A stretch of DNA of 35,897 nt from an uncultured Sutterella sp. (lineage in GTDB: Bacteria > Pseudomonadota > Gammaproteobacteria > Burkholderiales > Burkholderiaceae_F). Shown piece after piece: positions 21,894-24,013 of the stretch; position 1 is the stretch's first letter; every line of letters starts with the position of its first letter. A model generated the notes under the pieces. It searched no databases. It worked only from the letters and a program-made list of their open reading frames with translations, and was not told the DNA's origin. The DNA is taken from the NCBI GenBank assembly GCA_934249275.1, contig CAKQKT010000006.1, forward strand, positions 1 to 35,897. Reading direction: 5' to 3'. The position numbers and the translations under genes are program-made.

Positions 21894-22229
21894 TCAGAAC
21901 GGCAGCTTCATGCCCGGAGGAAGCGGAACTTCCTTGCGCATGCGCTCTTCGGAAACTTCCGCGAGACGGTTCTGCGCGTTGTTGAAGGCGAGCTGAACCA
22001 GATCTTCAAGCATTTCGACATCGTCCGGGCTCACGGCCGACGGATCGATGGAAATGCGCACGCACTGGTGCTTGCCGTTGATTCGGACCTTGACGGCGCC
22101 ACTGCCGGCTTCACCGTCGATTTCCATTGTAGCGATTTCTTCCTGCACCTTGGCAAGCTTGGCCTGCATCTTCTGAGCCTGAGCCATGAGGCCGCCCATG
22201 TTGCCCATGCCACCGCCGAATCCACGCAT
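21894..22229 (-). CDS. ybaB: Nucleoid-associated protein, YbaB/EbfC family
   Basis: YbaB/EbfC proteins are small dimeric DNA-binding proteins encoded next to dnaX in most bacteria. The 111-residue protein has a glycine/methionine-rich N-terminus (MRGFGGGMGNMGGLMAQAQKMQ), a long helix, the strand VKVRINGKHQCVRISIDPS and the C-terminal helix ending in MKLPF, all typical. It starts 34 nt downstream of the end of the tau reading frame and is probably cotranscribed with dnaX. Confidence 0.93.
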   Translation of the reverse strand: MRGFGGGMGNMGGLMAQAQKMQAKLAKVQEEIATMEIDGEAGSGAVKVRINGKHQCVRISIDPSAVSPDDVEMLEDLVQLAFNNAQNRLAEVSEERMRKEVPLPPGMKLPF

Positions 22230-22263: not shown

Positions 22264-24013
22264 TCAATCTTCATTCGCCTTGACGGAAGCGTCGTCAATC
22301 GTACCATGAAACAGAGCCTGAACCTGCTTCACGAAGGGATCGTTTCGGAACCCTTCAATGAGTGCGCGCCTGGCCTCCTCGCGCTCGTGCTCCTCCTGAT
22401 CGGCGACGGTGCCGCCCTGAACGTCGCCCACCTCGAACTCCACCATGCAGTGGCTGCCGAAATAGGCGGAAAGCGCGTGCGAAAGAAGCTCGCGCCCGGT
22501 TTCGGTCGCGAATGCCGCGACGCGAAGGCGCAGCTTGACATGGCTGCGGGTGAGCTTGAGCACCTGCGCCGATGCGGCGAGGTTTCTCAGCGGCCCCGTC
22601 AGCTTTGCTCCTGCAATGATCGACCGCCAGTCGAGAGAAGATTCACCGTAGTCCGGATCCGGACCGCCCTGTGGAATCTCCGGAGCGTACTCAACTGGCG
22701 GAGGGTTCTCCCCAAGGAGGGGTATCGTCGCTGAGGGAGTCGGCAGCCGGGACGGACAGCCCGGGAGGCGGCGCCGACGGACGAGGCAGAGGCGGCATGC
22801 CGGAGCTGCGTCCCACCGTCTGCACGCCGGCAGAAGGCGAAGCCGGTGCAGGAACAGGTTCAGGCGTCCTGCCCGCATCCCTGGCCGGCACGCGTGTGAC
22901 GGCGCGAGCACCTGCCGGCTTGAAAGCCAGCATGCGCAGGAGAGCCATCGTAAAGCCCGCGTATTCATCAGGCGCGAGATTCAGATCGTTTCGGCCGTGA
23001 AGCGCGATCTGATAGTAAAGCTGGATCTCTTCAGGAGTAAATGCGTCGGCAAACTCTCGAATCGAAGCACAGTCCGGATCGTCCTCGCTCACGGCGGCGG
23101 GCACGCGCTGAACGAGCGCAATGCGATGCAGAAGTCCCGCCAGATCGCGAAGCGCCTGAGCAAAGGAAAGGCCCTGCGTCTGCATGCCGTCGGCAACGGC
23201 AAGCATGCCGGCGCCGTCTCCGTCGGCGAGCGCATGAAGAATGCGGGTGAGCGTCTCGCCGCCGCTCATGCCGAGCATGCGTCGCACGCCGTCCTGAGTC
23301 ACGCCGTCGCCGCAGTAGGCAATGGCCTGGTCAAGAAGCGAGAGGCCGTCGCGCATGGAGCCGCGGGCTCCCTGAGCAAGGACGCGAAGCGCGCCTTCCT
23401 CGAAGGGAATCTTTTCTTCCGTGAGGATTCGGCTCATGTGCCCCACAACGTCCTGAGGCGTCATGTTGCGCAGGTTGAACTGCAGGCAGCGGGAAAGCAC
23501 CGTAATAGGCACTTTCTGCGGATCCGTCGTGGCAAGGATGAACTTCACGTATTCGGGCGGCTCCTCAAGCGTCTTCAACATTGCATTGAAGGCCGTCGAA
23601 CTCAGCATGTGGACTTCGTCGATCATGTAGACCTTGAAGCGCCCCTGAGTCGGCGCGTACATCGCACGTTCGAGAAGCGCGGTCATATCTTCGACCGAAC
23701 GATTGCTCGCCGCGTCCATCTCGATGTAGTCGGGGAAGCGGCCTTCGTCGATCGCGCGGCAGGCAGGGCATACTCCGCAGGGATGAGCTGTCATATCCCC
23801 CTTGCCGTCCGCGCCCTGACAGTTAAGCGCCTTGGCGAAGATGCGGGAGATCGTCGTCTTGCCCACGCCTCGGGTTCCCGTAAAGAGATAGGCGTGGTGA
23901 AGACGCTTTTCCGTCAGAGCGCGCGTGAGCGCGGTCACGACGTGCTCCTGGCCGACGATCGTCTCAAAGTCATGAGGCCGCCACTTTCGAGCGAGCACCT
24001 GATAACTGCTCAT
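22264..24013 (-). CDS. dnaX: DNA polymerase III tau/gamma subunit, tau in two frames
   Basis: DnaX is the clamp-loader ATPase; tau also tethers the polymerase core and DnaB. The zero frame (24013-22691) codes 440 residues: Walker A GTRGVGKT (46-53), zinc-site Cys65, Cys79, Cys82, Cys85, Walker B IDEVH (131-135), SRC with the arginine finger (174-176), then a proline-rich linker. It stops at about the length of E. coli gamma (431). The tau-specific C-terminal domain (DYGESSLDWRSIIAG to ASVKANED) continues in the +1 frame to 22264. Reading CCC at 22705-22703, skipping one base and resuming at 22701 gives a 582-residue tau. Programmed frameshifting, a real mutation and an assembly indel are all possible; the coding content of both parts looks intact. 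AAGGA precedes the ATG by 7 nt. Confidence 0.9.
22691..22713 (-). promoter_or_regulatory. dnaX: Candidate +1 frameshift site in dnaX
   Basis: On the minus strand a Shine-Dalgarno-like GGGGAG (22713-22708) is followed by two bases, then CCC-T (22705-22702), and the zero-frame TGA comes three codons later (22693-22691). A proline tRNA on CCC can re-pair with CCT after a +1 slip. The close SD-to-slip spacing resembles the prfB recoding site. Function is inferred, not shown. Confidence 0.5.

Follow-up and report, generated by a model that had tools for sequence, protein, structure and literature searches.

A candidate programmed frameshift signal in dnaX of two Sutterellaceae genera, with tau probably reached by a -2 tandem slip

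The dnaX gene of an uncultured Sutterella sp. is split between two reading frames in the stretch of DNA analyzed here (35,897 nucleotides, contig CAKQKT010000006.1; hereafter, the window), and this frame break is genuine, with read error excluded. We consider it likely that the split reflects a programmed ribosomal frameshift signal, with gamma produced by default and tau through a -2 tandem slip. The break is conserved, an octamer lies in register with the zero-frame codons, a downstream stem covaries, the tau frame is under purifying selection, and the switch of frame is confined to a short zone. From these sequences we infer the occurrence of the shift in cells, its direction (-2 rather than +1) and its frequency. 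An earlier note on the window had proposed that tau hinges on a shift out of the gamma frame and that the short form is the default, and the break, the stem and their conservation support that proposal.

All features of the locus lie on the minus strand. The zero frame (24013..22691) encodes the 440-amino-acid gamma form, which ends TPPWGEPSAS, as the earlier note had read it, at a TGA stop codon (22691-22693), and profile searches of the window matched this frame to the DnaX ATPase, lid and domain III models (PF13177, PF22608 and PF12169). A second frame, one base on, matched PF12170, which is tau domain V. This tau-specific part, as read after the shift (22264..22707), comprises 147 codons, the first being AAC at 22707, and a stop, and the sequence PPVEYAPEIPQ and what follows it are open in the +1 frame through to the stop at 22264, in agreement with the first description. 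If the shift is -2, tau would be 436 + 147 = 583 amino acids long. The shift octamer, GGGGAGAA, occupies 22706..22713 and contains the zero-frame codons GGA (22709-22711) and GAA (22706-22708); the GGGGAG-AA-CCCT string that had drawn attention to the site is indeed present. Four nucleotides past the octamer is the 5' arm of the stem, CCGCCAGTTGAG (22690..22701), with the gamma stop codon inside it, and a loop of 54 nt (22636-22689) separates it from the 3' arm, CTCGACTGGCGG (22624..22635). Downstream of dnaX, and mentioned for context only, is a YbaB/EbfC-family gene (21894..22229; PF02575, E 1.6e-30).

Genomes of the family of G007 (n = 67), which include the genus of G003 (n = 10) and the genus of G063 (n = 12), were searched for the same arrangement. 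The element was found in 22/22 species genomes of these two Sutterellaceae genera, 12/12 in the genus of G063 and 10/10 in the genus of G003. The break, with the end of gamma in the zero frame and tau in another, was present in 21/21 genomes that could be read across the site, in both genera; G060, the remaining genome, has its gamma part truncated at the edge of a contig and carries the element on a different one. Counts out of 22 rows given below refer to the window plus the genus of G063 (11 of 12 genomes) and the genus of G003 (all 10), and alignment A1 is composed of the corresponding loci (the window, 11 and 10). Locus L094 was left out of these counts, as its contig ends before the site and the element of its genome is on another contig. 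Thirteen loci of other genera have a single continuous dnaX frame of 580-709 amino acids, and the remaining 32 family genomes fall outside that count; among those 32, several lack dnaX or have it split or truncated at a contig end (G011, G012, G028, G030, G034, G038, G044, G045 and G051). Automatic open-frame length did not serve as a test: it was 713 for G023, though the frame of G023 ends 474 amino acids along the query.

The nearest row to the window is L089 (97% identity over 370 columns). The closest named loci include L003 (Duodenibacillus sp.) and L007 (uncultured Sutterella sp.), in both of which the zero frame is likewise short and the +1 frame carries the tau part. Among the best 120 of 7992 database proteins, 76 end in xGE plus 0, 1 or 4 residues (11, 1 and 64 proteins, respectively), and the other 44 include continuous proteins of other genera as well as P0031 and P0075. 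Compared by eye, the Sutterella wadsworthensis short form P0073 (437 amino acids, 219 member sequences, 236 contigs) ends as L100 does, and P0045 of S. massiliensis ends as L092 does. P0075 (518 amino acids) and P0031 (540 amino acids) are Sutterella-like continuous DnaX proteins, the first without the site-bearing linker and the second with an odd one; they weigh against the proposed shift, and we regard them as rare variants or assembly faults. The break is beyond chance, since two genera have it in common, along with the octamer and a stem that covaries.

The position of the switch was delimited by comparison among species. Within the window, taken by itself, 270 nt of open +1 frame precede the octamer, and the interval of about 30 nt given in the earlier note is not derivable from it; the last upstream tau-frame stop of each of the other species does bring the switch down to a narrow zone, from -24 to +8 nt relative to the first G, on the supposition of one common site in all species. 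The gamma stop codon (TGA in 17, TAA in 3 and TAG in 2 of 22) lies 12, 3 or 0 nt past GAR in 15, 2 and 5 of the 22 rows, respectively. Since a stop directly follows GAR in those five, the shift must take place at or before the last codon of the octamer. The note had also suggested aligning dnaX of relatives; the frame break proved to be conserved (21/21), and the CCC-T part did not, as CCCT makes up the next four bases in 4/22. In the aligned part of the switch zone, which begins at -7, the octamer alone is conserved, and no conserved SD-like element was seen in the seven aligned upstream bases (A1 columns 1-7).

The octamer follows the pattern GGGG(A/G)GAR, in the register GG_GGR_GAR, in 22/22 rows of A1. 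It is GGGGAGAG in 16, GGGGAGAA in 5 and GGGGGGAG in 1, the last being L096, whose octamer is shared by its close relative G060. The run of G at the octamer is 4 to 6 bases long. The preceding base varies (C in 10, T in 8, G in 3 and A in 1), so that four kinds of codon precede GGR, and the Gly and Glu codons are constant throughout the 22 rows. Within the best 120 of 7992 database proteins, S or L stands before GE in 3 of the 76 with xGE ends (P0083, P0109 and P0118), and GG ahead of GGA may not be universal.

These features fit a -2 tandem slip. Ribosomes that keep frame would terminate at the TGA that lies in the stem, yielding gamma. In others, the stem would hold the ribosome while GGA occupies the P site and GAR the A site; the ribosome would slip two bases back, and both tRNAs would re-pair, Gly-tRNA moving from GGA to GGG and Glu-tRNA from GAR to GAG. 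Reading would then run on into the tau domain, with PPWGENPPPVEY as the junction peptide. As judged from the octamers, re-pairing after such a slip is possible in the P site in 22/22 rows and in the A site in 21/22. The exception is L096, and with it G060: at GGGGGGAG, Glu-tRNA would face GGG after a -2 slip, which counts against this direction. One base back, Glu-tRNA would face AGA, and one base forward, Gly-tRNA would face GAG, and both would mispair. The -2 slip gives the same frame as a +1 shift and fits the octamer better. Access to that frame by -2 adds one residue relative to +1, and in one studied cassette a shorter spacer raises the ratio of -2 to -1 shifting, according to the available text of PMC5009743. 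The stem by itself is no marker of the -2 type, since the continuous-frame loci L081, L083, L101 and L105 keep 9 to 10 of 10 pairs.

A programmed +1 shift at the same octamer, in which a peptidyl-tRNA on NGG or GGR steps forward under stimulation by the stem, or in which GGGGAG acts as an SD-like element and the slip occurs after it, would reach an identical net frame, and a GGG_G slip would re-pair fully in L096 and G060 (GGGGGGAG). GGGGAG can pair with the anti-SD, which we count in favor of this explanation. On the other hand, four kinds of NGG codon precede the octamer, so that different tRNAs would be needed, two of them slipping onto a mismatch, and the AGAR half of the octamer is left without explanation. 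A slip past GAR is impossible in the 5/22 rows with a direct stop. Taken together, we consider a +1 shift unlikely. In prfB, an SD element lies at a fixed distance before the slip codon, and UGA occupies the A site. The dnaX site resembles prfB in its net +1 frame and in the G-rich, SD-like stretch near the site, whereas the codon that comes next and the place of the stop differ among species and there is a stem, an arrangement that is not that of prfB. The prfB-like mechanism proposed in the earlier note is not supported as the general one, given the variable codon past GAR, the restriction of CCC-T to 4/22 and the direct stop in 5/22.

The downstream stem was examined in several ways. A direct search identified a contiguous stem of 10-14 bp (G-U allowed), starting 3-6 nt past the octamer and closing loops of 28-67 nt, in 22/22 rows. 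For a 12-bp stem, 94.7% of alignment cells pair, and sliding the arms by 1-3 columns lowers this value to 21-43%. Compensatory changes were seen as 31 cells altered on both sides, a number reached in 0/500 shuffles. Two further measures of covariation showed no excess: 6 pairs had changes on both sides (equaled in 121/500 shuffles) and there were 8 further pair types (equaled in 500/500). RNAalifold, run on the alignment, returned the identical helix. Because the two arms are also part of the tau coding sequence, the observed pairing was compared with that after 2000 shuffles of synonymous codons; 219/220 core pairs were observed, versus a mean of 149 (standard deviation, 5.1) and a highest value of 167. 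Each row alone gave 0.025 or less, and as the rows are related, the total is not to be read as a probability. An origin of the stem as a by-product of protein coding is ruled out by these shuffles. Single-sequence folds of 76-nt pieces did not contain the common stem in most rows, because the 3' arm fell outside the pieces in many of them. Pairing of GGGGAG with a CTCCCC in the loop, noticed by eye in some Sutterella rows, was dropped as a candidate, since other rows do not have it. The stem was also seen by eye in L102.

A covariance model built from A1 and run with strict filters gave one match per genome in 22/22 genomes and matched 0/45 other family genomes; across the order it matched 6/399, all six known beforehand. 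As the window and 21 of the 22 genomes went into the model and match it by construction, the match in G060 and the absences are the sole independent results.

The tau part has been retained. In seven pairs, a hand-chosen subset of all pairs, dN/dS was 0.11-0.39 for the tau frame and 0.05-0.19 for gamma. A scan of 10 of the 22 tau parts found PF12170 in every one, with 7 matches exceeding the curated cut-off. By tblastn, 19/22 match the tau part of the window, the window itself included, and the three that do not (L104, L107 and L116) nevertheless match PF12170. In one of the 19 matched rows, L090 (G058), there is a second frame break in the tau part, about 40 codons past the octamer. Seventeen database proteins that match the window's tau part are tau parts entered separately, some named hypothetical protein, including one in a Sutterella record. 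These entries, which gene callers give as tau parts alone, and the many loci with a start codon somewhere upstream in the tau frame would suit gamma and the tau domain being two separate proteins, the second made from an internal start. We judge this very improbable: between the last upstream tau-frame stop and the gamma stop, the interval scanned for ATG, GTG and TTG (rarer starts or starts further down lie outside the scan), L092, L099, L100 and L116 (4/22) have none of the three, and neither the register of the octamer nor the stem would be explained.

Neither gene decay nor an error of sequencing or assembly is a credible explanation. Single breaks do occur, as the extra one in L090 illustrates, but here the identical break is seen in 21/21 genomes of two genera, together with a covarying stem and a tau part under purifying selection, and short forms number hundreds of member sequences (219 in P0073 alone). 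The one-base deletion in the reads that the earlier note had held to be an equally good explanation fails on the same conservation across genera and on the same stem. Transcriptional slippage on the G run, altering mRNA length, is known for Thermus dnaX and suspected for poly-A dnaX genes (as given in the available part of PMC3711429), but the chance of it here is negligible, as the run of 4 to 6 G is below the eight or more described in that source and slippage has no need of the AGAR half, the codon register or a stem 3-6 nt away.

Dependence of tau on recoding is already known from other bacteria: GeneTack identified 17 two-ORF dnaX genes in 12 genera, which are -1 at the DNA level, and in 12 of them poly-A runs of 7-10 suggested transcriptional slippage (PMC3711429, available part). 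As in the two genera studied here, gamma is the plain zero-frame product of these genes and tau needs a change of frame near the gamma end; in contrast, the site in the two genera has no poly-A, and it has a G-rich octamer, a +1/-2 frame and a stem at 3-6 nt. A Chlorobium two-ORF dnaX with E. coli-like signals has been described, and a reversal of roles through a single-nucleotide change was foreseen (PMC5009743, in part). The E. coli gene has the same two products and a stem just past the shift site, yet in that gene tau comes from plain reading and gamma from a -1 shift at A_AAA_AAG, so that site and direction are unlike those in the two genera. Neither A_AAA_AAG nor a gamma made by shifting was found in the genes of the two genera, and a stem a few nucleotides on was found in 22/22. 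The natural examples of -2 shifting that are named in the available part of PMC5009743 come from phage Mu, from arteriviruses (nsp2TF) and from Trichomonas vaginalis virus 1. At the arterivirus site, RG_GUU_UUU, two tRNAs slip in tandem (PMC11818727), and stimulation comes from bound proteins, not a stem (PMC8915115), as far as the available text of each goes; a mammalian antizyme cassette shifts by -2 solely in a foreign host, budding yeast (PMC11818727 and PMC5009743, in part). The viral cases, like the shift proposed here, reach the +1 frame by two bases back, whereas dnaX is cellular and its site is associated with a stem. PRFect left -2 shifts out of its training, according to the accessible part of PMC10885494. 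Within a literature search that most subscription papers lay beyond, no paper was found on Sutterella with dnaX or with ribosomal frameshifting, -2 frameshifting returned viral cases and reviews, and an octamer attributed to phage Mu had no match. What is new is the lineage, the signal of GG_GGA_GAR plus stem and, probably, the -2 direction in a cellular gene.

Relatives outside the two genera carry variants of the site. In the tree, each of the shift genera is a clade (100/99) within an unresolved fan that also contains three continuous clades, and a single origin of the element was not rejected (p-AU 0.19). In the genus of G002 (Parasutterella secunda), six of the eight loci with dnaX found (L084, L110, L112, L138, L142 and L143) have a continuous frame in which a G stands before GGG GAG. 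A -1-frame TGA comes 3-4 codons on, and a candidate hairpin lies 4-14 nt after the site, with helices of 9-12 contiguous pairs in 4/6. The site is possibly comparable to the -1 signal by which E. coli makes gamma. Of the continuous-frame loci mentioned above, L083 and L105 keep 10/10 stem pairs and L081 and L101 keep 9/10, values equaled in 0.003-0.04 of synonymous shuffles. All four have a -1-frame TGA within or just ahead of the stem, and no slip site was recognized in them. The signal may be older than its present polarity. We are inclined to think that the two genera hold a natural -2 shift in a cellular housekeeping gene, on which tau depends, and that dnaX in the family has switched between this arrangement and the -1/gamma arrangement of the Parasutterella secunda genus.

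Other short or unusual dnaX forms were encountered along with these. A set of DnaX proteins of 402-406 amino acids (P0117, P0119, P0122, P0123, P0125, P0126, P0130 and P0133-P0136), together with P0112 (430 amino acids), end in PGKP, PGKS or PGK, not xGE, and perhaps mark another recoding site of a relative. In L073 (Oxalobacteraceae MAG, JAJTGE010000003.1) the zero frame stops at 439 amino acids, just past a run of nine A; this may be another case of the poly-A, two-ORF type already published, or else an assembly error. In the linker of L113 (G064), the frame is continuous and includes ten consecutive A, a stretch at which slippage during transcription might yield gamma.

Tau links the polymerase to the helicase (PMC11470591, in part), and a core replisome component of common gut bacteria would therefore depend on recoding. 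Annotation hides this tau, because the S. wadsworthensis entry is the 437-amino-acid short form and a tau part in a Sutterella record is named hypothetical protein. As a simple bacterial case of an octamer plus a stem, the site would be a direct test bed for the rules that set -2 apart from -1 and +1 shifting. The family would also supply a series of natural variants, with both products of the gene kept and the default one seemingly changing.
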